NCBI RefSeq assembly: GCF_036346105.1
Contig: NZ_CP107811.1
Location: forward strand, 3,044,501 to 3,108,500
From: Streptomyces sp. NBC_00539
GTDB taxonomy: Bacteria; Actinomycetota; Actinomycetes; Streptomycetales; Streptomycetaceae
Direction: 5' to 3'
Length of the DNA: 64,000 bases
Position numbers and translations under genes: made by a program. Numbering within the stretch: position 1 is the stretch's first letter; the number at the start of each line of letters is the position of its first letter. Under the pieces are notes generated by a model. It was not told the DNA's origin and did not search any database. It saw only the letters and a list, made by a program, of their open reading frames with translations. Below, piece after piece: positions 32,973 through 60,421 of the stretch.

Positions 32973-32987
32973 CTGACGAGCCGTCAG
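32973..32987. promoter_or_regulatory. 15-bp inverted repeat, operator copy 1 (CTGACG-N3-CGTCAG)
   Basis: CTGACGAGCCGTCAG lies 26 bp upstream of the SDR start at 33014. It is one of five copies in the window sharing the same half-sites and the same 3-bp spacer, all in front of catabolic-type genes. Confidence 0.7.
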
Positions 32988-33013
32988 GAACGGGTACAGC
33001 CACAGGAGGGGTC

Positions 33014-33796
33014 ATGCTGCTTCGCGGGAAGACCGTCGTCGTCTCCGGGGTCGGGGCCGGGCTCGGGCACCAGGTGGCCGCCGCCGTCGTGCGGGACGGG
33101 GGGAACGCCGTGCTCGGGGCGCGGACCGAGGCGAACCTGGTCAAGGCCGCCGCCGAGATCGACCCCGACGGCGCGCACACCGCCCACCGTCCGACCGACA
33201 TCACCGACGAGGCGCAGTGCGAGGCCCTCGCCGCCCTCGCCGTGGAGCGGTTCGGCGGCATCGACGCCGTCGTGCACGTCGCCGCCTGGGACTCGTACTT
33301 CGGAGGCCTCGAAGACGCCGACTTCGGCACCTGGCAGCAGATCATCGACGTCAACCTCCTCGGGACCCTGCGCATGACCCGGGCCTGCCTGCCCGCGCTC
33401 AAGCGGGCCGGCGGTTCCGTCGTCATCATCGGCACGCAGTCCGCCGTGGCCTCCCCCTCCCAGGTGCAGCAGGCCGCGTACGCCGCGTCCAAGGGGGCGC
33501 TGACCTCCGCCATGTACTCCATGGCGCGGGAGCTCGGCCCCCACCGGATCCGCGTCAACACGGTGCTGCCGGGGTGGATGTGGGGACCGCCCGTGCAGGC
33601 CTTCGTGACCTTCACCGCGCATTCCGAGGGCGTACCGGAAGCCGACGTACGGGCCCGGCTCACCGAGCGGATGGCGCTGCCGGACCTCGCCACCGACGGC
33701 GACGTCGCGGACGCCGCCGTCTTCTTCGCCTCCGACCGCGCGCGGGCCATAACCGGCCAGTCGCTGCTGGTCAACGCCGGTGAGCTGATGCGATGA
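33014..33796 (+). CDS. SDR family oxidoreductase
   Basis: The product is 260 aa. It has a Rossmann nucleotide site [12 protein letters not shown] (residues 9-20), the NNAG-equivalent VVHVAAWDS, catalytic Ser143, Tyr156 and Lys160 (YAASK) and the C-terminal [12 protein letters not shown]. The NNAG motif is altered to HVAA, but the catalytic triad is complete. The ribosome site AGGAGGGG is strong. The upstream operator copy links it to the gene set at 46644-52937 and to the amidohydrolase at 59168. The substrate is unknown, perhaps an alcohol or a 3-hydroxyacyl compound. Confidence 0.9.
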
Positions 33797-33836
33797 CCCT
33801 CCCCCGGCCCGGTCGACCGGATCGTATGCTCGGCGC

Positions 33837-36413
33837 ATGACCACTCCGAGTGACGCCCCGACCGACAACGCGATGCGCCGCGCGCTCCGGCGGGCCCGGG
33901 ACGGCGTCGCGCTCGACGCGACCGAGGCGGCCGTACTCCTCCAGGCACGCGGTGAGTCCCTGACGGACCTCGCCGCCTCCGCCGCCCGGGTCCGCGACGC
34001 AGGTCTCGCCGCGGCCGGCCGGCCGGGCGTGATCACGTACTCGAAGAGCGTGTTCATCCCCCTCACCCGCCTGTGCCGCGACAAGTGCCACTACTGCACC
34101 TTCGCGACGGTCCCCGGGAAGCTCCGCCGGGCCGGTCACGGGATGTTCATGTCGCCCGACGAGGTCCTCGACATCGCCCGCCGCGGCGCCGCGCTCGGCT
34201 GCAAGGAAGCGCTCATCACCCTCGGCGACAAGCCCGAGGACCGCTGGCCCGAGGCGCGCGAGTGGCTGGAGGCGCACGGCTACGACGACACGATCTCCTA
34301 CGTACGGGCCGTCTCGATCCGCATCCTGGAGGAGACGGGCCTCCTCCCCCACCTCAACCCGGGCGTCATGTCCTGGGCGGACTTCCAGCGCCTCAAGCCG
34401 GTCGCCCCGTCGATGGGCATGATGCTGGAGACCACCGCCACCCGCCTGTGGTCCGAGCCGGGCGGGCCGCACCACGGTTCCCCCGACAAGGAGCCGGCGG
34501 TCCGGCTGCGCGTGCTGGAGGACGCCGGGCGTTCCTCGGTGCCCTTCACCTCCGGCCTGCTCATCGGCATCGGGGAGACGTACGAGGAGCGCGCGCAGTC
34601 GCTGTTCGCGCTGCGCCGCGTCTCGCGCGCCTACCACGGCATCCAGGAGCTGATCATCCAGAACTTCCGCGCCAAGCCGGACACGGCGATGCGCGGCATG
34701 CCGGACGCGGAACTGGACGACCTCGTGGCGACGATCGCCGTCGCCCGGCACATCATGGGCCCCTCGGCGTGCCTCCAGGCGCCGCCCAACCTGGTCGACG
34801 GCGAGTACGCCCGGCTGATCGGCGCCGGAATCGACGACTGGGGCGGTGTCTCACCGCTGACGCCCGACCACGTCAACCCCGAGCGGCCCTGGCCCCAGAT
34901 CGACCTGCTGGCCGAGCAGTCGGCGGCCGCCGGCTTCGAGCTCCGCGAACGGCTGTGCGTGTACCCCGAGTTCGTTCAGCGCGGCGAGCCGTGGCTGGAC
35001 CCGCGCCTGCTGCCGCACGTACGGGCGCTCGCCGATCCGGACACCGGGCTGGCGGACGAGGCCGCCGAGGTGACGGGCCACCCGTGGCAGGAACCGGACG
35101 AGAGCTTCGCCTCCTACGGGCGCACCGACCTGCACGCCACCATCGACACCGAGGGGCGTACGGGCGACCGGCGCGAGGACTTCGACCTCGTCTACGGCGA
35201 CTGGGAGGCCCTGCGCGAGGCCGCCGCGCCCGGCATGGTGCCCGAGCGGATCGACACGGACGTACGGGCCGCGCTCGCGCAGGCGGCCGACGACCCGACG
35301 AAACTGACCGACGAGCAGGCGCTGGCGCTGCTGCACGCCGACGGGCCGGCGCTGGACGCGCTGTGCCGGATCGCGGACGACCTGCGCAGGTCGGTGGTGG
35401 GCGACGACGTCACGTACGTCGTCACGCGGAACATCAACTTCACCAACGTCTGCTACACCGGCTGCCGGTTCTGCGCCTTCGCGCAGCGCCGCACCGACGC
35501 GGACGCGTACACGCTCTCCCTGGAGCAGGTCGCGGACCGGGCCGCGCAGGCGTGGGACGTCGGCGCGGTCGAGGTGTGCATGCAGGGCGGCATCCACCCG
35601 GACCTGCCCGGGACGGCGTACTTCGACATCGCGCGGGCGGTGAAGCAGCGGGTGCCGGGCATGCACGTCCACGCGTTCTCGCCGATGGAGGTGGTCAACG
35701 GCGCCACGCGGACGGGCATGTCGGTACGGGAGTGGCTGACGGCCGCCAAGGAGGCCGGGCTGGACTCGATACCGGGTACGGCGGCGGAGATCCTCGACGA
35801 CGAGGTCCGCTGGGTGCTGACCAAGGGGAAGCTTCCGACGGCCGACTGGATCGACGTGATCACGACGGCGCACGAGCTGGGCATCCGCTCGTCGTCCACG
35901 ATGATGTACGGGCACGTGGACCAGCCCCGCCACTGGCTCGGGCACCTGCGCACACTGGCCCGGATCCAGCAGCGGACCGGCGGTTTCACGGAGTTCGTGA
36001 CGCTGCCGTTCATCCACACCAACGCCCCCGTGTACCTGGCGGGCATCGCACGGCCCGGGCCGACGGTGCGCGACAACCGGGCGGTGACGGCGATGGCCCG
36101 GATCCTGTTGCACCCGCACATCACCAACATCCAGACGAGCTGGGTGAAGCTGGGCGCGGAGGGCGCGGCGGAGATGCTCCGCTCGGGCGCCAACGACCTG
36201 GGCGGGACGCTGATGGAGGAGACCATCTCGCGGATGGCGGGCTCCTCTTACGGCTCTTACAAGTCCGTCCGGGACCTGGTCGCGGTCGCGGCAGCCGCCG
36301 GGCGGCCGGCGAGGCCCCGTACGACCCTGTACGGGGAGGTGCCGCAGGAACGCCGGCTCGCGGCGGCGGCCTCGGACGGGCACCTGCCGGAGCTGCTGCC
36401 GCTGGTGGACTGA
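33837..36413 (+). CDS. fbiC: bifunctional FO synthase (CofG-CofH fusion)
   Basis: The product is 858 aa, containing both radical SAM halves that make the deazaflavin FO of coenzyme F420 from tyrosine and 5-amino-6-ribitylaminouracil. The CofG half has Cys80, 84, 87 (CRDKCHYC), and the CofH half, from about residue 505, has CYTGCRFC near residue 538 after TRNINFTN. Fusion of both halves is the normal actinobacterial form. No strong ribosome site precedes the ATG; a TATGCT at about 33826 could be a -10 of a leaderless transcript. It lies 40 bp after the SDR stop. The window also holds two enzymes likely to use F420. Confidence 0.95.
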
Positions 36414-36436
36414 GTCCGGGCCGCCGCGGCGCCCGC

Positions 36437-46643: not shown

Positions 46644-48125
46644 TCACCCCGCCCACACGATCGACTGCATCTCGCTGTAGGCGTGCAGCGCGTACGAGCC
46701 GACGTCCCGGCCCACCCCCGACCGCTTGAAGCCCCCGAACGGCGCCTCCATGTTCCGCCCGATCGTGTTCACGCCCACCCCGCCCGCCCGCAGCCGCCGC
46801 GCGACCCGGAACGCGCGCGCCGGGTCCCCGGACCACACGTAGCTCAGCAGGCCGAAGTCGCTGTCGTTGGCCAGCGCCACCGCCGCGTCCTCACCCGCCT
46901 CCCCGGCGCCGTCGAACGGTACGACCACCACCACCGGGCCGAAGATCTCCTCCCGCACCACCCGCATGTCGTTCGTGCAGTCCACGAGCAGCGTCGGGGC
47001 CACGTAGAAGCCGCTGCCGTCCCCGACCACCGGGCGCTCGCCGCCGTACGCGATCCGCGCGCCCTCCTTGCGGCCGAGCTCGACGTACGACTCCACCCGG
47101 TCCCGGTGGGCCGCCGAGATCACCGGGCCGACGACCGTGCCCCGCTCCCCCGGATCGCCCACCTTCATGAAGGCCAGGTAGCCGGTGAGCTTCTCCACGA
47201 GCGCCCCGTACACCGACCGGTGCACGATCACCCGGGTCGGGGCGGTGCAGATCTGGCCGCTGTAGAAGGAGAAGGTGGTGCCGATCCCCGCCACCGCCGC
47301 GTCGAGGTCCGCGTCCTCCAGCACCACCGCCGCGCCCTTGCCGCCCAGCTCCATCAGCTGCCGCTTCATGGAACGGCCGCACGCCTCGGCGATGCGCTGC
47401 CCGACCGCCGTGGAGCCGGTGAACGACACCATGTCCACGTACGGGGAGTCCACCGCCGCCTCGCCCACCTCCACCGAGGCACCCGAGACGACGTTGACGA
47501 CGCCCGCCGGGACCCCCGCCTCCTGGAGCGCCTGCGCCATCTTGAACACCGACAGCGGGTCCTGCGGGGCCGGCTTCACCACCACCGTGTTCCCCATGGC
47601 CAGCGCCGGGGCCACCTTGCCCGCCGGATTGGCCCACGGGTTGTTGTACGAGGTGATGCAGGTGACCACGCCGACCGGCTGGCGCACCTCCAGCGCGCCG
47701 AGCACGGTCGCCTTCCCCATCGGGCCGGCCTCGGTGACCTGCGGCGGAAGCCCCCGCTCCACCGGCTCCAGGGCGCCCTTCGCGTACCGCCGGAAGCGGG
47801 ACACCCCGACGCCCACCTGCATGCCCCGCGCGATGCCCGTGGGGGCGCCCGTCTCGGCCTGCGCGAGCGCCGCCCACGGCTCGTACTCCCGCTGGATGAT
47901 GTCCGCGGCCCGGTCCAGGATCGCCGCCCGCTCCTGCGGCCGGGTACGGGACCAGCCCTCGAAGGCCCCGGCCGCGGCGCGGGCCGCCTCCTCCACCTGG
48001 GCGCGCGAGGCCTCCGGGGCGAGGCCGACCACCGACTCGTCGGCCGGGTTCACCACCTCGTAGTGCCCGCCGTCGGGATCCACCCACTCCCCTGCGATGA
48101 AGAGCCTCTGGGGCGCGTCCGTCAT
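46644..48125 (-). CDS. aldehyde dehydrogenase family protein
   Basis: The product is 493 aa. NAD(P)+-dependent aldehyde dehydrogenase features: FIAGEWVDP at the start, SYNNPWANPAGKVAPALAMGNTVVVKPA, the general base Glu in MELGGKGAAVVLEDADLD, the catalytic Cys in GQICTAPTRV and EEIFGPVVVVVPFDG. The ATG overlaps the upstream hydrolase stop as ATGA, so the two are co-translated. It is the last gene of the unit starting at 51072. The substrate is unknown, probably an aldehyde from the same catabolic route. Confidence 0.93.
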   Translation of the reverse strand: MTDAPQRLFIAGEWVDPDGGHYEVVNPADESVVGLAPEASRAQVEEAARAAAGAFEGWSRTRPQERAAILDRAADIIQREYEPWAALAQAETGAPTGIARGMQVGVGVSRFRRYAKGALEPVERGLPPQVTEAGPMGKATVLGALEVRQPVGVVTCITSYNNPWANPAGKVAPALAMGNTVVVKPAPQDPLSVFKMAQALQEAGVPAGVVNVVSGASVEVGEAAVDSPYVDMVSFTGSTAVGQRIAEACGRSMKRQLMELGGKGAAVVLEDADLDAAVAGIGTTFSFYSGQICTAPTRVIVHRSVYGALVEKLTGYLAFMKVGDPGERGTVVGPVISAAHRDRVESYVELGRKEGARIAYGGERPVVGDGSGFYVAPTLLVDCTNDMRVVREEIFGPVVVVVPFDGAGEAGEDAAVALANDSDFGLLSYVWSGDPARAFRVARRLRAGGVGVNTIGRNMEAPFGGFKRSGVGRDVGSYALHAYSEMQSIVWAG

Positions 48126-49861
48126 CGGGTGCTCACCGTCCTCGTGTCGCGGCCCGAGCGCAACACGGTGCCGGGGACCGCGCCCGTCACCCGGTCGTCG
48201 CGGACGGTCTCCACGCCGTTGACGCGTACCGACACGATCCCGACGGCCCGCGCGTCCAGCCGCGGGCTGTTGCCCGGCAGGTCGTGGACGAGCGTCGCGG
48301 GGCCCGCTTCGATGCGCTCCGGATCGAAGAGCACCAGGTCCGCGTGGAACCCCTCGGCGATCCGCCCGCGCTCGCGCAGCCCGAACAGCCGGGCGGGGTC
48401 GTCCGTGAGCATCCGCACCGCCTGCTCCAGCGGCACCAGCTTGCGGCCGCGCAGGCAGTCGCCGAGGAACCGGGTCGTGTACGGGGCTCCGCACATCCGG
48501 TCCAGGTGGGCGCCCGCGTCGGAGCCGCCGAGCATCACGTCCTCGTGCTGCCAGGTCTCGGCGCGCAGCGCCCAGCTCGCCGGGTCGTTGTCGGTGGGCA
48601 TGGGCCACAGGATCGTGCGCAGGTCGTCGTTGGCGCAGATCTCCACCAGGCAGTGGAAGGCGTCCTGGCCGCGCTCGGCCGCGATGTCGTTCACGACCCG
48701 GCCGGAGAGGCCCTCGTTCTCCTTGCTGTACGTGTCCCCTATGACGTAGCGGCCGAAGTCGGCGAGGCGGCGGAACACCCCGGCCTCCTTGCTGTCGGCG
48801 CGGCGCAGCATCTCGGCGCGCACGTCCGGGTCGCGGAGTGCGGCTATCCGCTCGGGGACGGGCAGTGCGAGGACCTCGCCCCAGCCGGGGATGAGGTTGA
48901 GCGCGCAGAAGGTACGGAGCGACATGTTCATGGGGGTGAGGATCGGCATGGTCAGTGCGACGATCCGGCCGCCGGCCTTGCGGGCCCGCTCGCTCGGTAC
49001 CAGCTGGCGCGGCACCCGTTCCGGGACGGAGGCGTCGATGGTGAGGACGTTCCAGTTCAGGGGGCGTCCGGCGGCGGCGCTCATCTCCACGAAGAGGTCG
49101 ATCTCCTCGTCGGAGAACTGGTCCAGGCAGCCCGCGACGATCGCCTCCAGCTGGGTGCCCTCGTGCTCGCCGACCGCCCGGGACAGGGCGAGGAGCTCGG
49201 CGGGACCGGCGTGCCGGGAGGCGACGGGGGCGCCGTCGCCGTCGGAGTGGGTGGAGGACTGGGTGGTGGACAGGCCCCAGGCGCCGGCGTCCATGGCTTC
49301 GTGGAAGAGGTCGAGCATCTGCCGCATCTGCCGGTCGGTGGGCTGCCCCCCGATGGCGTCCTCGCCCATGACGTGCTGGCGCAGCGCGCAGTGGCCGACC
49401 ATGAAGCCGGCGTTGACGGCGATCCGCCCCTCCAGGGCGTCGAGGTACTCGCCGAAGGTGGACCAGGTCCAGTCGACGCCTTCCTCCAGGGCGGCCAGGG
49501 CCATCCCCTCGACCTTGCTCATCATGCGGCGCGTGTAGTCGGCGTCGTCGGGACGGTCCGGGTTGAGGGGGGCGAGGGTGAAGCCGCAGTTGCCGCCGGC
49601 GACGGTGGTGACGCCGTGGTTCATGGAGGGGGTGGCGTACGGGTCCCAGAACAGCTGGGCGTCGTAGTGGGTGTGCGGGTCGATGAACCCGGGGGTGAGG
49701 ACCAGCCCGGTGGCGTCCTCGTCGGTGCGGGCCGTCCCGGTGACGGTGCCGGGTTCGCCGATGACGACGATCCGCCCGTCCCGGAGGCCGACGTCGGCGA
49801 CGTACGCGGGCGCGCCCGTGCCGTCGACGACGGTGGCTCCCTTGATCAGGTGGTCGAGCAT
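48122..49861 (-). CDS. N-acyl-D-amino-acid deacylase-like amidohydrolase
   Basis: The product is 579 aa. It has the amidohydrolase entry motif TPGFIDPHTHYDAQ (metal-binding HxH), VTTVAGGNCGFTLAP, the mid-domain ANDDLRTILWPMPT and the late Asp in MLGGSDAGAHLDRMCGAPYTTRFLG. Relatives hydrolyse N-acyl-D-amino acids or related cyclic amides. The ATG has AAGGAGCC nine bases upstream. It is 80 bp after the luciferase-like gene and overlaps the aldehyde dehydrogenase by four bases. Confidence 0.9.
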   Translation of the reverse strand: MLDHLIKGATVVDGTGAPAYVADVGLRDGRIVVIGEPGTVTGTARTDEDATGLVLTPGFIDPHTHYDAQLFWDPYATPSMNHGVTTVAGGNCGFTLAPLNPDRPDDADYTRRMMSKVEGMALAALEEGVDWTWSTFGEYLDALEGRIAVNAGFMVGHCALRQHVMGEDAIGGQPTDRQMRQMLDLFHEAMDAGAWGLSTTQSSTHSDGDGAPVASRHAGPAELLALSRAVGEHEGTQLEAIVAGCLDQFSDEEIDLFVEMSAAAGRPLNWNVLTIDASVPERVPRQLVPSERARKAGGRIVALTMPILTPMNMSLRTFCALNLIPGWGEVLALPVPERIAALRDPDVRAEMLRRADSKEAGVFRRLADFGRYVIGDTYSKENEGLSGRVVNDIAAERGQDAFHCLVEICANDDLRTILWPMPTDNDPASWALRAETWQHEDVMLGGSDAGAHLDRMCGAPYTTRFLGDCLRGRKLVPLEQAVRMLTDDPARLFGLRERGRIAEGFHADLVLFDPERIEAGPATLVHDLPGNSPRLDARAVGIVSVRVNGVETVRDDRVTGAVPGTVLRSGRDTRTVSTR

Positions 49862-49941: not shown

Positions 49942-51072
49942 TCAGACGGCTTGGCGGAAGCGGGTCGTGCGGTGGACCGGGTCGGTGTCGATGTGCGGGA
50001 TCACGTGTTCGCCGATGAGCTTGATGGTCGTCATCGTGTCCTCGTAGGACACCCCGGTCGGCAGGCCGAAGGACAGCTGGTCGGCGCCGGCCTGCTCCCA
50101 CCGCTTGCACTGGGCGCGGACCTCGGACGGGTCGCCGCAGATCAGCAGTTCCTCGGCGATCAGCAGCTCGATGATCTCCGCGTTGTACTCGGGCAGCGTC
50201 TCGGGCCACTGCGGGATGGCCTCGGGGCGCGGGAAGGTGTCGTGGTAGCGGAAGACCAGCGACTGGAAGCGGTTCATGTTCGCGTTGACGGCGATCTCGA
50301 CGGCCTTGTCGTGGGTCTCGGCGCAGATCGCGGTGGAGGTGACCATCACGTTGTCGTTGACGAACGCGCCGATGGCCTTCGCCTCCTGGATGGCCGTCTT
50401 GTACTGCTCCAGCACCCACTCCATGTCGGAGACCTTCTGCACGCTGAACCCGAGGACGCCCAGGCCCTTCTTGGCGGCCATCGCGTACGACGAAGGGGAC
50501 CCGGCGGCGTACCACATGGCGGGGTGCGCCTTGCCGTACGGCTTGGGGAAGATCTTGCGCGGGGGCAGCGACCAGTGCTTGCCCTGGAACCCCTCGTATT
50601 CCTCCTGGAGGAACATCTTGGGGAACTCCGCGATGGTCTCCTCCCAGATCTCCTTGGTGTGGTTCATGTCGGTGATGCCCGGCAGGAACCCGAGGATCTC
50701 GTGGCTGCCCGCGCCGCGGCCGGTGCCGAACTCGAAGCGGCCCTTGGAGAGGTGGTCGAGCATGGCGACCTTCTCGGCCACCTTGACGGGGTGGTTCACC
50801 GGGGCGAGGGGGTTGAAGATGCCGGAGCCGAGGTGGATGCGTTCCGTGGCGTGGGCGAGGTAGGCGAGGAACACCTCGTTGGCGGAGAGGTGCGAGTACT
50901 CCTCCAGGAAGTGGTGCTCGGAGGCCCAGGCGTACTTGAAGCCGGACTTGTCGGCCTGGATGACGTACTCGGTCTCCTCGATCAGAGACTTGTGCTCCGC
51001 CTCGGGGTCGACCTTGGACCGCGCCTCAGGCACGTATCCCTGCACGAAGAGCCCGAATTCCAAGGGGTTCAC
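49942..51072 (-). CDS. luciferase-like (LLM) flavin monooxygenase
   Basis: The product is 376 aa, a TIM-barrel LLM enzyme. Family stretches are EFGLFVQGYVPEA, WASEHHFLEEYSHLSANEVFLAYLAHAT, LGSGIFNPLAPVNHPVKVAEKVAMLDHLSKGRFEFGTGRGAGSHE. This is the flavin-dependent alkanal monooxygenase-like subgroup. It starts at GTG, with AAGGA just upstream and operator copy 2 only 13 bp upstream. It is first in the unit LLM, amidohydrolase, aldehyde dehydrogenase. A flavin reductase gene is not adjacent. Confidence 0.9.
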   Translation of the reverse strand: MNPLEFGLFVQGYVPEARSKVDPEAEHKSLIEETEYVIQADKSGFKYAWASEHHFLEEYSHLSANEVFLAYLAHATERIHLGSGIFNPLAPVNHPVKVAEKVAMLDHLSKGRFEFGTGRGAGSHEILGFLPGITDMNHTKEIWEETIAEFPKMFLQEEYEGFQGKHWSLPPRKIFPKPYGKAHPAMWYAAGSPSSYAMAAKKGLGVLGFSVQKVSDMEWVLEQYKTAIQEAKAIGAFVNDNVMVTSTAICAETHDKAVEIAVNANMNRFQSLVFRYHDTFPRPEAIPQWPETLPEYNAEIIELLIAEELLICGDPSEVRAQCKRWEQAGADQLSFGLPTGVSYEDTMTTIKLIGEHVIPHIDTDPVHRTTRFRQAV

Positions 51073-51085: not shown

Positions 51086-51100
51086 CTGACGTTGCGTCAG
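51086..51100. promoter_or_regulatory. operator copy 2 (CTGACG-N3-CGTCAG)
   Basis: The perfect inverted repeat CTGACGTTGCGTCAG lies 13 bp before the GTG of the LLM gene, overlapping the place where the promoter or leader must be. A repressor bound here would block expression. Confidence 0.75.
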
Positions 51101-51146: not shown

Positions 51147-51161
51147 CTGACGCACCATCAG
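51147..51161. promoter_or_regulatory. operator copy 3 (one mismatch)
   Basis: CTGACG-CAC-CATCAG is the same element with one changed base, 46 bp upstream of copy 2 in the same intergenic region (centre to centre 61 bp, about six helix turns). Confidence 0.6.
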
Positions 51162-51193: not shown

Positions 51194-51979
51194 CTAGAGG
51201 ATGCTCACCCCGGCCATCCAGCCGCCGTCGATGACGAACGGCTGACCGGTGATGTAGGAGGAGTCCTCGCTGGTCAGGAAGAGCGCGAGCCTCGCGACCT
51301 CCTCCGGCCGGCCGACCCGGCCCAGCGGGACCACCCGCTTGTACAGGTCTGCCATCGCGTCCCGGGCCTCGTCCGTCATCCCCGCCGGGTCCAGCAGCCC
51401 CGGGTTGGCCATCGGGGTGTCCACGGCGCCCGGGCACATCGCGTTGACCCGGATGTTCTTCGCCGCCAGCTCCAGCGCGGCGACGCGCGTCAGCCCCAGG
51501 ACGGCCGCCTTGGTGGCGGCGTACGCGCCCACGTACGCCATGCCCGTCAAACCGGTGTAGGAGGAGGTGTTGACGATCGTCCCGCCGCCCGCCGCCCCGA
51601 TCTCCGGGGCCAGCGCCTTGATGCCGAGGAAGGCGCCGATCTGGTTGACCCGCACCACCTGCTCGAACTCCTCCAGCGGGGTCGCGGTCAGCTCGTTGAA
51701 GCGCAGGATGCCGGCGTTGTTGACCAGGCCGTCGATCCGGCCGAAGGCCTCCTTGGCGGCGGTGACGGCGGACGCCCAGTCCTCCTCCCGGGTCACGTCC
51801 ATCCGTACGTAGCGGGCCCGGTCCTCGCCGATCTCCTTGGCGACCGCCGCGCCCTGCTCGTCCAGTACGTCCCCGAGCAGCACCTTCGCCCCCTCGGCGG
51901 CGAAGAGGCGGGCCTCCTGCTCTCCCTGGCCGCGTGCGGCGCCGGTGATGAGGACGACGCGGCCCTCCAGCTTGCCCAT
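51194..51979 (-). CDS. SDR family oxidoreductase
   Basis: The product is 261 aa. Nucleotide site TGAARGQGEQ (12-21), NNAG (87-90), catalytic Ser139 or 140, Tyr153 and Lys157 (YAATK), and C-terminal ITGQPFVIDGGW. It is a classical SDR with an acidic residue after strand two (GDVLDEQG), suggesting NAD+ rather than NADP+. Ten bases separate it from the upstream F420-type gene, so they form one unit. Confidence 0.92.
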   Translation of the reverse strand: MGKLEGRVVLITGAARGQGEQEARLFAAEGAKVLLGDVLDEQGAAVAKEIGEDRARYVRMDVTREEDWASAVTAAKEAFGRIDGLVNNAGILRFNELTATPLEEFEQVVRVNQIGAFLGIKALAPEIGAAGGGTIVNTSSYTGLTGMAYVGAYAATKAAVLGLTRVAALELAAKNIRVNAMCPGAVDTPMANPGLLDPAGMTDEARDAMADLYKRVVPLGRVGRPEEVARLALFLTSEDSSYITGQPFVIDGGWMAGVSIL

Positions 51980-51989: not shown

Positions 51990-52937
51990 CTAGTCGTTGA
52001 GGAGGGGGGCCACCTCGGCCCCGAAAACGGCTATCTGGTCGATCAGTTCGGCGCGGTCGCGGCTGCGGAAGCGCACCTGGATCTGGTCCACGCCGAGCTC
52101 CCGGTACGCGCGCAGCGACTCCGCGAGCGCCTCCGCCTTGCCCGTGAGGGTGCGGCGGCCGGTGTCCCAGGCCGGCTCGCCGACGTAGAGCGCCTCGGTG
52201 ATCGCGCCGATCTCCAGCGGGCCGTCCACCCCCGCCGCCTCGCGCAGTTCCCTGATGCGGTTGATCTGCGCGGGGAGCTCGTGGCGGGGGTCGCCCTGCG
52301 GGAGCCAGCCGTCGCCGCGCACGGCGGCCCGGCGCACGGCGGCGGGCGAGGAACCGCCGACCCACACGGGGATCCGCGCCTGGGTGGGCCGGGGCAGCTG
52401 GCCGAGGTCCTTGAAGGAGAACCGCCCGCCCTCGAACTCCGGGTACTCCTCGGGCCCCAGGGCCGCGCGCAGGGCGTCCAGGGTCTCGTCGAGCACGGCC
52501 CCGCGGCGCCCGAAGTCCACGCCGAGCACCTCGAACTCCTCCGCCACGTGCCCGGCGCCGACCCCGAGGATCAGGCGGCCGCCCGAGAGGTGGTCGAGGG
52601 TGGCGTACTGCTTGGCGGTGACCAGGGGGTGGCGCAGGCCGACGATCGCGACGTGGCTCAGCAGCCGCACGTGCTCGGTGATCCCGGCGAGGTAGGCCAG
52701 GGTGGCGACCGGGTCGTACCAGACGGTGCCCATGGGCCCGGCGAGGCGGCGCGGGACGGCCACGTGGTCGCAGGTGGCGAGGTAACCGAACCCGGCCCGG
52801 TCGGCGGCCCGGGCGACCTCGGCGAGGTCGGCGGCGCCGGCCGCGGCCTCCCAGGGCTCGGCGTACAGGGTGCTCTGCGACTGGACCGGGAGCTGCATCC
52901 CGTATGCCAGCCGGCCTTCCGTAAACACGCGCGCCAT
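51990..52937 (-). CDS. luciferase-like oxidoreductase, probably F420-dependent
   Basis: The product is 315 aa with LLM motifs: GFGYLATCDHVAVP, HVRLLSHVAIVGLRHPLVTAKQYATLDHLSGGRLILGVGAGHVAEEFEVLG. This pattern is typical of the F420-dependent subgroup found in actinobacterial catabolic clusters. It is the first gene of a two-gene unit with the SDR. Operator copy 4 lies 72 bp upstream of the ATG. The substrate is unknown. Confidence 0.9.
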   Translation of the reverse strand: MARVFTEGRLAYGMQLPVQSQSTLYAEPWEAAAGAADLAEVARAADRAGFGYLATCDHVAVPRRLAGPMGTVWYDPVATLAYLAGITEHVRLLSHVAIVGLRHPLVTAKQYATLDHLSGGRLILGVGAGHVAEEFEVLGVDFGRRGAVLDETLDALRAALGPEEYPEFEGGRFSFKDLGQLPRPTQARIPVWVGGSSPAAVRRAAVRGDGWLPQGDPRHELPAQINRIRELREAAGVDGPLEIGAITEALYVGEPAWDTGRRTLTGKAEALAESLRAYRELGVDQIQVRFRSRDRAELIDQIAVFGAEVAPLLND

Positions 52938-53009
52938 GCCGTGACCGCCTCGCCTTCGTGGGCCGTGCGTCCGCCGGTTCGTCGTACCGGCTCGGGGGCA
53001 TCGTCGTAG

Positions 53010-53024
53010 CTGACGCTCCGTCAG
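53010..53024. promoter_or_regulatory. operator copy 4 (CTGACG-N3-CGTCAG)
   Basis: The perfect inverted repeat CTGACGCTCCGTCAG lies between the divergent F420-type gene (start 52937, minus) and the membrane protein gene (start 53132, plus). It could control either or both. Confidence 0.7.
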
Positions 53025-53131
53025 GCAATAGCGCGGCGGAACGGGATCCCGTTCCCGTGCGCTCTGGCGCGGGCCCGCGGCCCGGGCCTAAGGTGCGGCG
53101 CGCGGGATGGCGCGAGCACGGGAGACGTGGC

Positions 53132-53751
53132 GTGGAACTGTTTCTGACCCTGCTCAGCGGGGTCGCGTGGACCGGCGTGTACGCGGAGGCGATCCGGGTC
53201 GGGCTCCGGGACCGCACGTACGCGGTGCCGGCGGCCGCGCTCGCGCTGAACTTCGCGTGGGAGGCCACGTACGCGGTCGCCGAACTGCGCACCGGCCTCT
53301 CGGCCCAGGGCGTGGTGAACGTGGTGTGGGCGGCGGCCGACATCGCCATCATCGCCACCTACCTGCGCTTCGGGCGGGCCGAGCTGCCCCCGTTCGTGAC
53401 CCGGCCGCTGTTCGCGGCGTGGGGCGCCCTGCTCTTCGGCGCCGCCTTCGCCGTGCAGTGGCTGTTCCTGGCCCACTTCGGGATGCACGACGCGGTGCGC
53501 TACTCGGCGTTCCTGCAGAACCTGCTGATGTCCGTCCTGTTCGTCGCGCTGTACGCCGCCCGCCGGGGCGGGCGCGGCCAGTCCCTGGTCATCGCCGTCG
53601 CGAAGTGGCTGGGGACTTGGCGCCGACCGTGCTGTTCGGGGTGATCGAGGACGCCCCGTTCATCCTCGGGCTGGGAGTGATGTGCTCCGTGTTCGACCTG
53701 GCGTACCTCGCGCTGCTGGCCAGGGACCCGGCTGCGGCTACCGGGCACTGA
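53132..53751 (+). pseudogene. frameshifted membrane protein resembling transmembrane terpene cyclases
   Basis: The first frame (53132-53644) gives 170 aa of hydrophobic sequence from a GTG with GGGAGA upstream. Near 53611-53617 (CTGGGGACTTGG) the reading switches: after AVAKWLGT the other frame continues LAPTVLFGVIEDAPFILGLGVMCSVFDLAYLALLA and ends at 53751. Restoring one base would give 206 aa with about seven helices. The motif LNFAWEATYA (Glu44) and the late CSVFDLAYL Asp recall the catalytic Glu and Asp of Pyr4-type membrane terpene cyclases. I cannot tell a true mutation from a sequencing error at the GGGG run. Confidence 0.6.
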
Positions 53752-53803
53752 CCTCGCCCCGCGCCACCCCGTCGGAGCGGACGCGGACGGCGGGGCGTTT
53801 CCC

Positions 53804-53935
53804 GTTGGGCGGTATCGGGGAAGTGCGGGCCGGCTGCCGGTGGCGGGTGCCGTTGGGCGGTATCGGGGAAGTGCGGGCCGACTGCCGCTGGCAGGGTCCC
53901 CTTGGGCGGTATCAGGGGAGTGCTGGGGGCTTCCC
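53804..53935. repeat. tandem repeat, about 2.7 x 48 bp
   Basis: TTGGGCGGTATCGGGGAAGT recurs with period 48 then 49 bp (unit starts 53804, 53852 and about 53901). The third copy is partly degenerate and runs into the long inverted repeat. It starts 53 bp after the frameshifted gene and encodes nothing convincing. Confidence 0.8.
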
Positions 53936-54117
53936 GTCAGTCCACTGTCCTTTCGCGTCGGTCCGGTCCGTCAAGGGCGCTCGCTGCGCTCGCGTCGCTC
54001 CGCGATGGCCTGCGGCCACCCTTGACTGCCCGTCCCGCCCCAAAACGCCAAAGACTGCCGGGAAGCCCCCAAGGAAACGGCCGGGAGGTCATGTTCCGAT
54101 GACCCGGTCTCAACGAC
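53933..54117 (+). repeat. left arm A1 of a long inverted repeat
   Basis: These 185 bp return in reverse complement at 56042-56225 with only three differences (two substitutions and a one-base deletion), about 98% identity. The arm has an internal long hairpin bounded by GTCAAGGG and CCCTTGAC. Weaker similarity extends outwards into the last 48-bp repeat copy (from about 53907) and beyond 56225. No gene is seen in it. Confidence 0.9.
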
Positions 54118-54160
54118 GCCCGCCCGAAGCCCCGGTCCAGGCCCGTCTCTTGCACCCCGG

Positions 54161-54355
54161 CAAATCCAGCCTCGCCGGCGTTTGAGGCGCGGGGCCTGGG
54201 GCGGAGCCCCAGAAAGCCCCGAGCGCAGCGAGGGGGACCACCCACCCGCGCGACAGATCGCTACGCGCTCCCCCCGGCATGGCGTCCGCAGCCCGGCATG
54301 GGCTGGGCCGCCAACGACCGCTACACAGCTGACCTCGTCTGGCGTCGTACCGGCC
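54161..54355 (+). repeat. repeat B1 (Streptomyces intergenic repeat family)
   Basis: This block begins near CCAGCCTCGCCGGCGTTTGA and contains the GGGGCCTGGGGCGGAGCCCC hairpin and GACAGATCGCTACGCGCTCC. It returns inverted at 55804-56010 (B3, full length) and 55561-55716 (B2, partial). Similar short sequences are widespread between Streptomyces genes. The whole 53752-54434 stretch holds only repeats and no supported gene. Confidence 0.8.
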
Positions 54356-54434
54356 CGCCGGATCCGGCCGACCCGACTGGGAACCGACCGGGCGCAGCGC
54401 ACATGTCCGCGCTCCCGAGGGCTAGATTGCCCGT

Positions 54435-54785
54435 ATGCCTTCTGCACTCATTATTGGTTACGACCCGCAGGCGATACCCGGCGTCGATGCGAAGGCTCTT
54501 CGCGCGGATCTCGATGGGGAGCTGGCCCGGTTCGGCGCGCACGGTATCGACGCGGCCATGACGCTGGTCGTATTCGGCGAGGCGGGCGAGTCCGCCCTCG
54601 TCGCGTCGCTGACGGAGCGCCCGTGGGATGTCGTGATCGTCGGCGGCGGGATCCGCAAGACCGAGCAGTTGCTCCCGCTCTTCGAGCAGATCGTAAACCT
54701 GATTCGCCGCCATGCGCCTCAGGCGGCCATCGCGTTCAACACCAGTGGCGGGGACAGCGTGGAGGCGGCGAAACGGTGGGTATGA
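54435..54785 (+). CDS. hypothetical protein, 116 aa, Rossmann-like
   Basis: This small soluble protein starts MPSALIIGYDPQAIPGVDAKALRADL, with later strands TLVVFGEAG and WDVVIVGGGIRKTEQLLPLFEQIVNLIRRHAP, then AIAFNTSGGDS. Alternating strands and helices suggest a small alpha/beta (flavodoxin-like) fold. No named family. There is no ribosome site; TAGATT at 54424-54429 followed by ATG at 54435 suggests a leaderless transcript. It lies inside the loop of the long inverted repeat. Confidence 0.7.
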   Translation: MPSALIIGYDPQAIPGVDAKALRADLDGELARFGAHGIDAAMTLVVFGEAGESALVASLTERPWDVVIVGGGIRKTEQLLPLFEQIVNLIRRHAPQAAIAFNTSGGDSVEAAKRWV

Positions 54786-54794
54786 AGCCCCTGC

Positions 54795-55310
54795 TCAGGC
54801 GCGGCGCTTCGCCAGGACCGATCCGAGGAGCATGACGCCGGGGGCGATTCCCGCGATCAACGCGATGACGGCGGTGGAGAAGCCGTAGGCACCCAGCACC
54901 AGACCCACCGCGCCACACACCGACAGCCCCGCCGCCAGCCAACGCATGGACGTCAGCCGCCAGACGGCCGCCAGACCGAAGAAGTGCAGACCGACCACCA
55001 GCGCGATCCAACCCACCGTCGCCTGTGGGGCGTGCAGTACGGGATTGATCACGACGAGGCCCGCCGCTCCGACGACGACTTCGGCGGCGACGACGTACCG
55101 GTAGTTCCGGCCGAAGTCCGTCCTGGCACCGTCGGCGGCCGGCTGCTCCCCGCGCGCACGACGCAGTGTGAGTACCAGGGCGAGGAATGCGGTGACCGCC
55201 AGCACGCGCAAGGCAATGGCGACGGCCTCCGGCAGGGCGCCGGCGTTCGCCATGATGAAGAGGAACCCGAATATTCCACCGATGAGTCGGCCTGTCTGCG
55301 TCCGTATCAT
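54795..55310 (-). CDS. small integral membrane protein, 171 aa
   Basis: Five or six hydrophobic segments are visible: LIGGIFGFLFIMANAGAL, IALRVLAVTAFLALVLTL, VVAAEVVVGAAGLVVI, TVGWIALVVGLHFFGLAAVW, WLAAGLSVCGAVGLVLGAYG and AVIALIAGIAPGVMLLG. A polar loop (ARGEQPAADGARTDFGRNY) follows helix two. No family recognised. The start at 55310 (MIRTQTGRL) is preferred over 55337 because the extra residues are polar and unlike a membrane N-terminus; no strong ribosome site decides it. It is convergent with the preceding gene (9 bp between stops). Confidence 0.7.
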   Translation of the reverse strand: MIRTQTGRLIGGIFGFLFIMANAGALPEAVAIALRVLAVTAFLALVLTLRRARGEQPAADGARTDFGRNYRYVVAAEVVVGAAGLVVINPVLHAPQATVGWIALVVGLHFFGLAAVWRLTSMRWLAAGLSVCGAVGLVLGAYGFSTAVIALIAGIAPGVMLLGSVLAKRRA

Positions 55311-55560
55311 GGCGCCAGTGTCACCGATGTGGATCACCGGACCAATTCCGTTTTCGCGGCTCTGACCAGGCCTCTTGCCTCCCGGCAGGGGGCCGAGCCG
55401 GTGGCCTCCGGCCAGCGCGCAGCCCCTGCCGGGAGGCGCCCCCTCGCGGCCGACGGACGCCCTCGGGGCGGTGGTTGGTGCCGGTTCGGGCGGCTTCTAC
55501 CCCGCCGATGGTGCCGTGTTCGACGCCAGAGCGCGTCAGCCGGGCATCGAGCGTCGGCAT

Positions 55561-55716
55561 GCCCAGCCCACTGCCGGGCGGCAGACGCCGTGCGGGAGGA
55601 GCGCGTAGCGATCTGTCGCGCCGGTGGGCGGTCCCCCTCGCTGCGCTCGGGGCTTCTTGGGGCTCCGCCCCAGGCCCCGCGCCTCAATCGCCGCCGGGGC
55701 TGAATTTCCCGACCGG
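55561..55716 (-). repeat. repeat B2, inverted partial copy of B1
   Basis: This copy shares the CCCCCTCGCTGCGCTCGGGG, GGCTCCGCCCCAGGCCCCGC and TGTCGCG parts with B1 in opposite orientation, with more differences than B3. The stretch 55311-56360 holds B2, B3 and A2 and no gene that I can support. Confidence 0.75.
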
Positions 55717-55803
55717 CGCCACATGCTGGGAGGTGCCCTCACGAGGCTGGATTCTGCGGATCGGCGCCGAACCCCGGCAGGCGCCCCACGGGCCGAAAAC
55801 GGT

Positions 55804-56010
55804 GGCCGGTACGACGTCAGAGCACGTCAGCCGTGTAGCGATCGTTGGCGGCCTGTGCCCAGCCCATGCCGGGCTGCGGACGCCGTGCCGGGGGGAGCGC
55901 GTAGCGATCTGTCGCGCGGCCGGTGGGTGGGCCCCCTCGCTGCGCTCGGGGCTTCCTGGCGCTCCGCCCCAGGCCCCGCGCCTCAAACGCCGGCGAGGCT
56001 GAATTTTGCC
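55804..56010 (-). repeat. repeat B3, inverted full copy of B1
   Basis: It matches B1 from the GTACCGGCC end to the CAGCCTCGCCGGCGTTTGA end, with small insertions (for example the added CACAG next to GCTGGG and GGCC near GACAGATCG). With A2 just downstream, the order A1-B1 is mirrored as B3-A2. Confidence 0.8.
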
Positions 56011-56041
56011 GACCGGCGTCGAGCGCTTGAAGGGGCTTCGC

Positions 56042-56225
56042 GTCGCTGAGACCGGGTCATCGGAACATGACCCCCGGCCGTTTCCTTGGGGGCTTCCCGG
56101 CAGTCTTTGGCGTTTTGGGGCGGGACGGGCAGTCAAGGGTGGCCGCAGGCCATCGCGGAGCGACGCGAGCGCAGCGAGCGCCCTTGACGGACCGGACCGA
56201 CACGAAAGGACAGTGGACTGACGGG
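56042..56225 (-). repeat. right arm A2 of the long inverted repeat
   Basis: Reverse complement of A1 with three differences. It ends 136 bp before the Nudix gene. It keeps the GTCAAGGG/CCCTTGAC hairpin. Confidence 0.9.
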
Positions 56226-56360
56226 ACGCCCCCAACACCCCCCGACACCGCCTGAGGACACTCCGCCACCGCAGCCCCCGCACCCCGCCACCCACACCCC
56301 GCACAAGAAGCCGCCTCCTACCCCGAGACCACCCCGCCCCCTCCCCCGTACGCTGGGTCG

Positions 56361-56804
56361 ATGAAGAGAACTCCACGTCAGGCAGCGCGAATTGTCGTAC
56401 TTTCCCCGACTGGATCCGTGTTCCTCTTCCGGGAGAACAACGTCGAAGTCGGCATCCACTGGCTCCCGCCCGGCGGGGGGATCGATCCCGGGGAGAGTCC
56501 CGAGGAGTGTGTGCGGCGCGAGTTGCGGGAGGAGACCGGGTGGACCGACCTGGAGCCGCAGCGGCTGCTCTGCACCTGGGAGCACGACTTCACCCATATG
56601 GGCATACCGGTCCGCCAGTACGAGCACATCTACGTCACCAGCGGCCCCCGCCGCGACCCCGTCCCGGAGTATCCCGAGGCGCACTGGCGCTGGCTCTCGC
56701 AGGATGCGCTGGCCGCGCTCGGGGAGCCCCTGTGGCCGCCGCGGCTGGACGAGTTGCTGGCCCGCGTCTCCGCCGGCCCCGTCCACCTCGGCCTGATCGC
56801 CTGA
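56361..56804 (+). CDS. Nudix hydrolase
   Basis: The product is 147 aa with a complete Nudix box: GGIDPGE, seven residues, then RELREETGW (G-x5-E-x7-RE-x2-EE-x-G-U), so magnesium-dependent pyrophosphate cleavage of a nucleoside diphosphate compound is likely. The N-terminal MKRTPRQAARIVVLSPTGSVFLFREN is the usual strand pair. The substrate is not evident. No neighbouring gene suggests a pathway. Confidence 0.92.
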   Translation: MKRTPRQAARIVVLSPTGSVFLFRENNVEVGIHWLPPGGGIDPGESPEECVRRELREETGWTDLEPQRLLCTWEHDFTHMGIPVRQYEHIYVTSGPRRDPVPEYPEAHWRWLSQDALAALGEPLWPPRLDELLARVSAGPVHLGLIA

Positions 56805-57765: not shown

Positions 57766-57944
57766 CGCCACCCTCCCCACTCAGCTCTGGCGGAGCATGC
57801 CTTGGCGCCCCTGCCGCCGCAAGGGCCGGAGCCCGCCAGGATCCCGGGCTCCACCATCGCACTTCCGGGCCACGGGTGTTGACACGACCTCGGGAACACC
57901 CCACACTCCTCTGCATACGCCGGAAACAGTTTACGGAGGACACA

Positions 57945-59123
57945 ATGATTGCCGAAGTCGTCACCGCCACCGCCCTCGCCGCCCCTCCCGCCGCCCTCTT
58001 CGGCCACCGCGCCGTGCGCCGCCTCCAAGGCGCCCGGGCGCTGCGGATCGACTCCCCCCGCGGGATCGACGAGCAGGGCTTCGTCCGCATCGGCGGCATC
58101 GAGCAGTGGGTCTCGGTGCGCGGCGAGGACCGCGCCAACCCCGTCATCGTCGAGGTCCACGGCGGCCCGGGCGCCCCCAACTCCATCTACGCAGTGCGCA
58201 CGCGCGCCTGGGAGCAGCACTTCACGATCGTCCGCTGGGACATGCGCGGCGCCGGCAAGACCTTCGGCCGCGGCGGCCCGGAAGGCCAGGGGGACGCCAC
58301 CTTCGCGCGGCTGTACGAGGACGCCCTGGAGGTGGTCGGCCACGCACGCCGGAGGCTCGGCGTACGCCGGGTCGTACTCGTCGCCAACTCCTTCGGCAGC
58401 GTCTTCGGCCTGCGCCTGGTGCGCAACCACCCGGAGCTGTTCTCGGCGTACGTCGGCACCGACCAGAACGTCCCCGACGCCGACCGCGACGCCTGCGCGT
58501 ACCGGGACCTCCTGGAGCGGCTGCGCGCCGCCGGGAAGACCAAGCAGCTGGCGCGGGCCGAGGCCCTCGGCGCCGACCAGCGCGCCTGGAGCGCCGGGCA
58601 GCGCGCCACGTACGACCGACTCCGCACCCAGAGCGACCCGCTGACCCTGGACACCCTCAAGAAGGTGGTGCTCGGCTCGATGTGGCTGTCGCCGCTGCAC
58701 ACCCTGCGCGACCTGCGGGACTACTTCAAGGGGCAGCACTTCTCGGAGCGGGTCGCCGAAGGCACGACAGGGCTCACCGACGACCACAGGGGCGACCAGG
58801 CCGACGACCACGCCGACGACCACACCGACGACCAGGCCGACGACCAGGCAGACGACCCCGCCGACGAGACCGCCGACGAGACCGGCACGCGCTTCGAGGT
58901 GCCGTTCTTCGTCTTCCAGGGCGAGCTCGACGTCCTCACCCCGCCGGAGCGGGCCAAGGCCTTCTTCGACGCGGTCGAGGCACCCCTCAAGCACTTCGCC
59001 CTGATCGGGGGCGCGAGCCACTTCGCCTCGTTCCGGCGCCCCGAGGCCTTCCTGGAGCTCCTGCTGACCCACGTCCGGCCGGCGGTCACGGCCGAACGCG
59101 TCCAGGAGGCGCCCCAGAGGTGA
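57945..59123 (+). CDS. alpha/beta hydrolase, proline iminopeptidase-like, with Asp-rich insert
   Basis: The product is 392 aa. HGGPGAPN gives the oxyanion motif of the peptidase S33 family, RWDMRGAGKT follows, the nucleophile Ser is in VANSFGSVFG, and the Asp (GELDVLTPP) and His (GASHFASF) complete the triad. The cap domain carries an unusual run of (Gln/His-Ala-Asp-Asp) repeats (about residues 279-313). The start ATG has GGAGGA five bases upstream. It may remove N-terminal proline from peptides, but the repeat insert makes the substrate uncertain. Confidence 0.9.
   Translation: MIAEVVTATALAAPPAALFGHRAVRRLQGARALRIDSPRGIDEQGFVRIGGIEQWVSVRGEDRANPVIVEVHGGPGAPNSIYAVRTRAWEQHFTIVRWDMRGAGKTFGRGGPEGQGDATFARLYEDALEVVGHARRRLGVRRVVLVANSFGSVFGLRLVRNHPELFSAYVGTDQNVPDADRDACAYRDLLERLRAAGKTKQLARAEALGADQRAWSAGQRATYDRLRTQSDPLTLDTLKKVVLGSMWLSPLHTLRDLRDYFKGQHFSERVAEGTTGLTDDHRGDQADDHADDHTDDQADDQADDPADETADETGTRFEVPFFVFQGELDVLTPPERAKAFFDAVEAPLKHFALIGGASHFASFRRPEAFLELLLTHVRPAVTAERVQEAPQR
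58780..58890 (+). repeat. 12-bp in-frame tandem repeats within the hydrolase gene
   Basis: Units such as GACGACCACGCC and GACGACCAGGCC repeat about eight times, giving Asp-Asp-(His/Gln)-(Ala/Thr) and then Asp-Glu-Thr-Ala units. All changes keep the frame. Confidence 0.8.
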
Positions 59124-59167
59124 ACCAGAGGTGAGCCAGAGGGACGGCCCCCGAGCCCCCTACCCCC

Positions 59168-60385
59168 TCACCCCGCCCACAGCCCCTCCGCCGTCAGCCC
59201 CAGCAGGTCGATGGCGTTGCCCCGGACGATGCGCTCCACGACGTCCGGAGCGAGGTGCCCCATCTGGGCCTCCCCCACCTCCCGCGACTTCGGCCAGGTG
59301 GAGTCGGAGTGCGGGTAGTCCGTCTCGTAGAGGACGTTGCCCACGCCGATCGCGTCGAGGTTCCGCAGCCCGAACGCGTCGTCGAAGAAGCACCCGAAGA
59401 CGTGGTCCGCGAACAGTTCGGACGGCGGCCGGTGGACCTTGTCCGCGACCCCGCCCCAGCCGCGGTTCTCCTCCCACACCACGTCCGCGCGTTCCAGGAT
59501 GTACGGGATCCACCCGATCTGGCCCTCCGCGTACATGATCCGCAGGTTCGGGAAGCGCTCGAACTTGCCGCTCATCAGCCAGTCCACCATCGAGAAGCAG
59601 CAGTTGGCGAAGGTGATGGTGGAGCCGACGGCCGGCGGGGCGTCCGCCGAGGTGGACGGCATGCGGGAGGACGAGCCGATGTGCATGGCGATGACCGTGC
59701 CGGTCTCGTCGCAGGCCCGCAGGAAGGGGTCCCAGTCGTCGGTGTGGACGGAGGGGAGCCCGAGGTGCGGGGGTATCTCGGAGAAGGCGACGGCCCGCAC
59801 CCCGCGGGCGGCGTTGCGGCGGACCTCGGCGGCGGCGAGGCGGGCGTCCCAGAGGGGGACGAGGGTGAGCGGGATGAGGCGGCCCTGCGCCTCGGGGCCG
59901 CACCATTCCTCGACCATCCAGTCGTTGTAGGCCCTGACCCCCAGCAGCCCGAGTTCGCGGTCGGCGGCCTCGGTGAAGGTCTGTCCGCAAAAGCGCGGGA
60001 AGGTCGGGAAGCAGAGTGCGGACTGGACGTGGTTGACGTCCATGTCGGCGAGCCGGTCGGGAACCGAGAAGGAGCCCGGGCGCATCTGCTCGTAGGTGAT
60101 GACTTCCAGTTTGATCTCGTCGCGGTCGTATCCGACGGACGTGTCCAGGCGCGTGAGGGGCCGGTGCAGGTCTTCGTACACCCACCAGTCGCCGATGGGC
60201 CCGTCGTCGCCCCGGGCTCCCATGACGGGGGCGAACTTTCCGCCGAGGAAGGTCATTTCCTTCAACGGGGCGCGGACGACACGCGGCCCGATGTCGCGGT
60301 ACTTGGACGGGAGCCGGTCCCGCCAGACGTGCGGGGGCTCCACCGTGTGGTCGTCCACCGAGATGATCTTCGGGAAGGTCTCCAT
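59168..60385 (-). CDS. amidohydrolase family protein (ACMSD-like)
   Basis: The product is 405 aa, a metal-dependent barrel. It begins METFPKIISVDDHTVEPPHVW, where the early D-D-H replaces the usual HxH, as in many amidohydrolase-2 members. Further conserved parts are CFPTFPRFCGQTF, AYNDWMVEEWCG, IAMHIGSSSRMPSTS (metal His) and YETDYPHSDSTWP (late Asp and His). Relatives decarboxylate or hydrolyse ring-cleavage products. Operator copy 5 is 21 bp upstream of the ATG, linking it to the set at 46644-52937. Confidence 0.9.
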   Translation of the reverse strand: METFPKIISVDDHTVEPPHVWRDRLPSKYRDIGPRVVRAPLKEMTFLGGKFAPVMGARGDDGPIGDWWVYEDLHRPLTRLDTSVGYDRDEIKLEVITYEQMRPGSFSVPDRLADMDVNHVQSALCFPTFPRFCGQTFTEAADRELGLLGVRAYNDWMVEEWCGPEAQGRLIPLTLVPLWDARLAAAEVRRNAARGVRAVAFSEIPPHLGLPSVHTDDWDPFLRACDETGTVIAMHIGSSSRMPSTSADAPPAVGSTITFANCCFSMVDWLMSGKFERFPNLRIMYAEGQIGWIPYILERADVVWEENRGWGGVADKVHRPPSELFADHVFGCFFDDAFGLRNLDAIGVGNVLYETDYPHSDSTWPKSREVGEAQMGHLAPDVVERIVRGNAIDLLGLTAEGLWAG

Positions 60386-60406
60386 GCGTATTACGGTAGC
60401 GCTGAT

Positions 60407-60421
60407 CTGACGGATCGTCAG
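60407..60421. promoter_or_regulatory. operator copy 5 (CTGACG-N3-CGTCAG)
   Basis: The perfect inverted repeat CTGACGGATCGTCAG lies 21 bp before the amidohydrolase start and 173 bp before the divergent regulator gene, so it most likely controls the amidohydrolase. Confidence 0.75.

Follow-up and report, generated by a model that had tools for sequence, protein, structure and literature searches.

A CTGACG-N3-CGTCAG palindrome as the probable operator of a TetR-controlled catabolic regulon in Streptomyces

In Streptomyces sp. NBC_00539, the 15-bp palindrome CTGACG-N3-CGTCAG is probably the operator of a TetR_C_38 repressor (gene at genome positions 3121386-3122033) that would control units for the catabolism of a polycyclic isoprenoid or steroid-like lipid. 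The sites stand ahead of genes and are conserved in other Streptomyces, the TetR gene lies in their midst, and the motif occurs at the start of this TetR gene in several families. A KstR-like repressor of polycyclic-isoprenoid catabolism is the most likely reading of these observations, and from it we infer binding, repression, an inducer and a substrate. The window, i.e. the whole stretch of DNA that was analysed, spans 64,000 nt (positions 3044501-3108500 of a 7.5 Mb genome). A first-pass annotation of the window had proposed one type of operator and a regulon of scattered catabolic genes, both of which are upheld by the data given below.

The four perfect copies and the one-mismatch copy listed in that annotation were all found again at the same positions (Table 1), the whole window holds no further copy with one mismatch or fewer, as had been noted, and the distances to called starts agree with the 13-75 bp first given. 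SDR, luciferase-like monooxygenase (LLM), F420-LLM and amidohydrolase units do stand behind the sites, but the assignment of one SDR (51194-51979) and of site 51147 to a unit was corrected; sites 51086 and 51147 both lie upstream of a single gene, that of the LLM, and the SDR gene is the second of the unit behind site 53010. Against the four perfect sites, 100 dinucleotide shuffles of the window gave a mean of 0.00, with none reaching four, and against the five sites at one mismatch or fewer they gave a mean of 0.49, with none reaching five. Allowing two mismatches removes the signal: 11 sites were found versus 7.7 expected, a number reached in 16 of 100 shuffles. When spacers of 0 to 11 were tried, the palindrome was present with a spacer of 3 only. 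Among 180 half-site permutations scanned over 156.5 kb of the same genome, CTGACG formed seven palindromes, the next best two, and the mean of the others was 0.028.

Table 1. Operator sites and the genes beside them, in window coordinates
Feature	Position	Strand	Remarks
Operator, perfect (CTGACG-AGC-CGTCAG)	32973..32987	.	26 bp upstream of SDR start
SDR, subfamily PRK07890	33014..33796	+	Perfect site also ahead of the orthologue in G013 and in G093
CofGH/FbiC, F420 precursor synthase	33837..36413	+	Adjoins SDR; 1530 bits, bifunctional
Aldehyde dehydrogenase	46644..48125	-	Gene 3 of LLM unit
Amidohydro_3 protein	48122..49861	-	Gene 2 of LLM unit
LLM (luciferase-like) monooxygenase	49942..51072	-	Gene 1 of its unit
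Operator, perfect	51086..51100	.	13 bp upstream of LLM start
Operator, one mismatch (CTGACG-CAC-CATCAG)	51147..51161	.	74 bp upstream of LLM start
SDR	51194..51979	-	Gene 2 of F420-LLM unit
F420-dependent LLM oxidoreductase, TIGR03619 above cut-off	51990..52937	-	Gene 1 of its unit
Operator, perfect	53010..53024	.	72 bp upstream of F420-LLM start; 107 bp upstream of divergent Pyr4-like frame (called start)
PF04909 'amidohydrolase', putative dinuclear-iron monooxygenase	59168..60385	-	Nearest solved structures DitZ, PtmU3
Operator, perfect	60407..60421	.	21 bp upstream of amidohydrolase start; 173 bp upstream of divergent SARP gene
AfsR/SARP-type regulator (BTAD, NB-ARC, TPR)	60595..63744	+	Divergent from amidohydrolase

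The catabolic genes are scattered, as first described, though over more than the almost 28 kb then given, since the window contains the left part of a site cluster of ~67 kb (3077473 to 3144043) and there are unlinked operons besides. The cluster, whose limits were chosen by us and exclude a site with one mismatch that lies 20 kb farther on, at 3164105 within a called gene, contains 15 sites, seven perfect and eight with one mismatch. All 15 lie outside called genes, in a stretch that is 85 % called coding, and all are 13-74 bp upstream of at least one called start. Genes were called with our own codon-usage caller, with the result that some starts may be misplaced and some genes overlooked. 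Genome-wide, there are 13 perfect sites and 91 at one mismatch or fewer (78 with exactly one), whereas a control pattern, the motif read backwards, gave 0 and 21, respectively. Six of the perfect sites are outside the cluster; one is inside a gene, and five stand 13-50 bp upstream of a start, two of the latter also overlapping the end of the preceding gene. Behind those five stand genes for two LLMs, an AMP-ligase, a thiolase paired with a DUF35 protein, and a product that matched nothing in Pfam. Beyond the cluster there are 70 sites with one mismatch, of which five were examined; three are within called genes, one is intergenic and one stands ~35 bp ahead of a beta-oxidation operon with an acyl-CoA dehydrogenase gene, a dehydratase-DUF35 fusion and further genes.

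By the reasoning of the first-pass annotation, a regulon would be doubtful if other Streptomyces lacked the sites ahead of the orthologous genes; five others (G013, G036, G093, G106 and G115) do have sites ahead of orthologous operons, although gene order and orientation have changed, the stretch fetched from G115 keeping only part of the cluster. The LLM promoter has paired sites in G013, G036 and G106 and a single site in G093. Promoters of orthologues of the PF04909 'amidohydrolase' gene at 59168-60385, 40 of which were taken by hand down a list of 100 other genomes with a full-length orthologue, had a perfect site in 40 of 40 cases. The spacers of these sites took 15 different three-base forms, GCTAC lay exactly 6 bp downstream of the site in 39, and GCTACCGT was present in 34. 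This combination of a perfect palindrome, a varying spacer and a fixed GCTAC has the look of a protein-bound operator adjoining a -10 box. Across 150 Streptomyces, the median number of perfect copies is 13, with 14 in the 105 genomes that have an amidohydrolase match versus 6 in the 45 that do not (Mann-Whitney 1.9e-13, a nominal P since the genomes are related; in four of the 105 the sole match is partial or at paralogue level, by E-value). Seven motif-poor species (G116, G118, G136, G132, G010, G027 and G131) have all kept the TetR gene, and six of the seven FMO and SARP genes; within ~10 kb around their TetR gene, or to the contig end, there was neither a site nor a gene for FadD3, Ltp, DUF35, ECH, ACAD or thiolase, and nowhere in these genomes did a match to the amidohydrolase reach E 1e-100.

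Some further features of the window deserve mention in their own right. A frame on the forward strand at 52958-53644, whose called start is the one listed beside operator 53010, matches Pyr4-like transmembrane terpene cyclases (PF25129, 1.5e-22) and no orthologue of it was called in any of the five Streptomyces regions compared. It is followed by nearly 3 kb (53650-56400) in which gene calls are few and weak, the three reading frames in or overlapping it giving no Pfam match. The CofGH gene adjoins a regulon SDR gene, and the regulon also has F420-type LLM and F420H2-quinone reductase genes; membership of CofGH in the SDR unit is doubtful because it is on the opposite strand from the SDR gene in G013 and G093.

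The annotation had read the genes as a pathway oxidising and hydrolysing an unknown substrate, of which the catabolic pathway stands, while its nature is now recognisable as steroid-type degradation of CoA thioesters. A FadD3-family ligase scored 802 bits with NF005801 (cut-off 657), and an Ltp-type thiolase (L018:4521-5672) scored 578 bits with PRK07855 (cut-off 469) and matched 6ok1 at 1.3e-98. The latter adjoins a DUF35/ChsH2 protein (L018:5681-6127) with zf-ChsH2 and OB_ChsH2_C domains, as in an Ltp2-ChsH2 retro-aldolase. Paired acyl-CoA dehydrogenases match 4x28_A (2e-55) and 6wy9 (2e-54), and an HsaB-like flavin reductase scored below its cut-off. The other site-linked enzymes are enoyl-CoA hydratases, an ADP-forming acyl-CoA ligase, LLM and flavin monooxygenases, and SDRs. 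Because the canonical steroid pathway is missing from 55 of 57 Streptomyces genomes according to PMC4810484, the most economical guess as to the substrate is a polycyclic isoprenoid acid or a steroid-like lipid.

The product of 59168-60385, first labelled an ACMSD-like amidohydrolase, proved much closer to the diiron monooxygenases DitZ (2.4e-54) and PtmU3 (1.7e-34) than to the ACMSD entry 8yt2 (only 2.3e-7), and the ACMSD label was rejected. The PDB name DitZ we take to denote a protein of the diterpenoid dit cluster. Residues D11, H13, H235, E287, D356 and H359 align with metal ligands of PtmU3 and DitZ and provide the three histidines and three carboxylates of the dinuclear oxygenases, a six-ligand set given in PMC10127204 and PMC7782822. 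A second PF04909 protein, encoded outside the window at 3142744-3143940, likewise keeps all six residues. The 59168-60385 product is thus a putative dinuclear-iron monooxygenase, like PtmU3, DitZ and AibH2 in its PF04909 family and in the conservation of every metal-ligand position and unlike them in belonging to a putative TetR-controlled regulon with steroid-type beta-oxidation. PtmU3 itself hydroxylates a diterpenoid-CoA, according to PMC10127204.

As to the regulator, the type of site had suggested a TetR-family protein, a guess that is supported here; the accompanying remark that no TetR gene is present needs amending, as one lies inside the site cluster, 12.9 kb past the right edge of the window. 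Its product has the TetR-family architecture of an N-terminal HTH and a helical C-terminal domain (TetR_N 6.7e-6, TetR_C_38 2e-72), and the predicted structure is mostly helical (pLDDT 90.9) and EthR-like, identity to EthR of M. tuberculosis being 20 %. The gene is present in 149 of 150 Streptomyces, and its orthologue in S. coelicolor is presumably SCO4640, which two papers call simply a TetR regulator. The recognition-helix sequence GTS-x-ATFYQYF is invariant in 18 aligned TetR sequences; the G179 relative, which was omitted from the alignments, reads QTS instead of GTS. In Streptomyces, the TetR gene's own site has two mismatches and overlaps conserved codons, and the start-region site in the lineage of G037, G120 and G121 has a different spacing. 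Three genomes (G116, G118 and G136) have 0 perfect sites yet keep the TetR gene with the same start-region sequence, and so the protein may have another main job. Conversely, G139 (98 % complete, 1010 contigs) has nine sites and no TetR hit.

Beyond Streptomyces, 197 genomes of the class were scanned, and TetR_C_38 exceeded the cut-off in 41 of them. In family f14, whose closest named relatives are Frankiales MAGs, TetR presence agrees with the presence of at least six sites in 11 of 12 genomes; G291, where the two disagree, is 68 % complete. Outside Streptomyces and family f13, nine class genomes have at least six copies, and eight of these have the TetR gene. For 15 of the 30 sites in f14 and f12 the neighbourhood was examined; 11 adjoin homologues of regulon enzymes and four do not, the homologues being 28-67 % identical (amidohydrolase 67 %, ALDH 63 %, ACAD 63 %). 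In f12, the TetR gene itself adjoins an ACAD pair that bears a site. The motif in the TetR gene's own promoter, which the annotation had thought worth seeking, is perfect in some lineages but imperfect in Streptomyces and absent from some loci. Among 19 distant TetR loci, the start region holds a perfect motif in G216 and G271, one with a single mismatch in G162, G281, G252, G184 and G160, and one with two mismatches in G262; at three f18 TetR genes, one-mismatch copies precede the called start by 37-168 bp, and the start-region copies of five f13 TetR genes are weak. G170 and G179 have TetR relatives but no start-region copy and no sites, and G203 has one site. Among 80 named TetR loci, a two-mismatch copy lies over the start in 72 (Streptomyces, Yinghuangia and Actinomadura), three Frankiales MAGs have copies with one or two mismatches, and the stretch examined holds none at the other five loci (Pseudofrankia, Frankia, Parafrankia, one Streptomyces and one MAG).

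The raw count of perfect motifs was ruled out as a proxy for the regulon by one Streptomyces, G044, and by family f13. G044 has 31 perfect copies, of which 15 were examined (loci L251-L265); none adjoins a regulon homologue, and many are found within genes or where genes converge at their 3' ends. The f13 genomes have 109-218 perfect copies each, together with a divergent TetR relative. Of 15 copies examined among the 113 in G200 (loci L156-L170), five are inside or overlap a called gene, four precede a start by 15-43 bp (in one case that of a FadD-like gene), and the remaining copies are intergenic and often at 3' ends; no T-run was present. Since something else can evidently multiply the palindrome, f13 was not used as support, though some of its copies may still be operators. 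A gene for an MlaE/YrbE-type permease was seen near an f13 site (L166:289-1131, by Pfam) and another near an f14 site (L148:2810-3013, by sequence inspection only), hinting that Mce-type lipid uptake is linked to the motif.

The operator and regulon could be real and yet answer to another, unlinked protein, the TetR_C_38 gene being only a core-genome neighbour. Such an arrangement would fit the retention of the TetR gene where sites and enzymes are missing, the imperfect start-region site of Streptomyces, and the 11 class genomes that have 3-10 copies but no TetR_C_38 match (G291 with 10, G293 with five and nine with 3-4); it is nonetheless unlikely, given that TetR genes of f14, f12, f18, Streptomyces, Yinghuangia and Actinomadura have the motif at their start, that TetR and site number go together in f14, and that the f12 TetR gene is next to site-bearing genes. 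A regulator much closer at hand would be the SARP/AfsR-like protein, as a perfect site precedes its gene and that placement is conserved in G013, G036 and G093. SARPs, by contrast, bind direct repeats rather than a 15-bp palindrome, and the homologue persists in motif-free neighbourhoods of several Streptomyces, on which ground the candidate was rejected; it is probably not the cognate regulator, and the odds that it is are very small.

The palindrome might instead act in RNA, as a hairpin or terminator-like repeat, as the many f13 and G044 copies at convergent 3' ends or inside genes could suggest. In the cluster, in contrast, 15 of 15 sites come before starts, with no T-run after them by eye; sites are located upstream of a -10-like box and often between divergent genes, and in the 40 amidohydrolase promoters the would-be loop varies while the palindrome stays perfect. 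A terminator was therefore rejected for the window's cluster, and an RNA element is, of all the readings, the hardest to credit.

The TetR-operator reading has its nearest model in KstR (Rv3574) of mycobacteria, a TetR repressor with a palindrome in its own promoter and many scattered lipid operons, as described in PMC1995591. Common to both are a TetR-type repressor (proposed here), an own-promoter site, a short palindrome that overlaps or adjoins the -10, paired sites within one promoter, and many scattered operons for steroid-type beta-oxidation. The KstR motif, TnnAACnnGTTnnA in PMC1995591, differs from CTGACGnnnCGTCAG here, which is not a KstR operator. Among the 23 PDB sequences matched by the cluster TetR, several with generic names, no entry is called KstR, and neither KstR nor KstR2 is among the fold matches shown for it, an absence that proves nothing. 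The operator motif of KstR2 also differs from that described here. According to PMC5380842, KstR2 is a TetR repressor of the genes for rings C/D (HIP) with a CoA thioester, HIP-CoA, as its effector, to which the candidate TetR and its inducer would be analogous. The two regulons have in common a FadD3-family ligase, IpdE2-like acyl-CoA dehydrogenases, SDRs and enoyl-CoA hydratase; unlike that of KstR2, the regulon here has dehydrogenases too low in score for true IpdE2 (204.2 and 152.8 bits versus a curated cut-off of 450) and gave no match to an ipdAB-type CoA-transferase among the proteins scanned. A description of the operator or regulon was absent from the literature matches listed (full text, few subscription journals), and the motif string, in six spellings, had no match in the full-text literature searched, in keeping with the earlier view of an undescribed regulon.

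In the mechanism that we favour, a TetR dimer would sit on the site, adjoining or just upstream of the -10 box, and would shut off ~15-20 transcription units until released, probably by a CoA thioester formed by the first enzymes of the pathway, by analogy with KstR2. The substrate, a polycyclic isoprenoid carboxylate or steroid-like lipid, would be activated to its CoA thioester by the FadD3-like and other ligases, its rings hydroxylated by diiron monooxygenases of the PtmU3/DitZ type together with flavin monooxygenases, and the product then passed to the paired acyl-CoA dehydrogenases and to retro-aldol cleavage of the Ltp/ChsH2 type. A bolder and more tentative idea, which we hold to be possible rather than probable, is that a regulon conserved widely across Streptomyces and Frankiales-type bacteria, under one conserved TetR, mineralises a polycyclic isoprenoid (a diterpenoid, hopanoid or steroid-like acid), joining diiron hydroxylation of a terpenoid-CoA, as in platensimycin biosynthesis, to subsequent removal of the side chain by steroid-type retro-aldol cleavage.

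The many steroid-like beta-oxidation genes in the Streptomyces cluster stand against the near-general lack of the canonical pathway in the genomes covered by PMC4810484. Through a single operator and a conserved repressor candidate, dozens of such genes are joined in one testable regulon, and a named candidate regulator offers a route to the inducer and hence to the substrate. Searches with the operator could likewise bring to light missing pathway genes in other genomes of these groups, provided that a position before a start, not copy number alone, is required. If the bolder idea is true, a capacity to degrade terpenoids would be hidden in a genus thought to be mostly without steroid catabolism.
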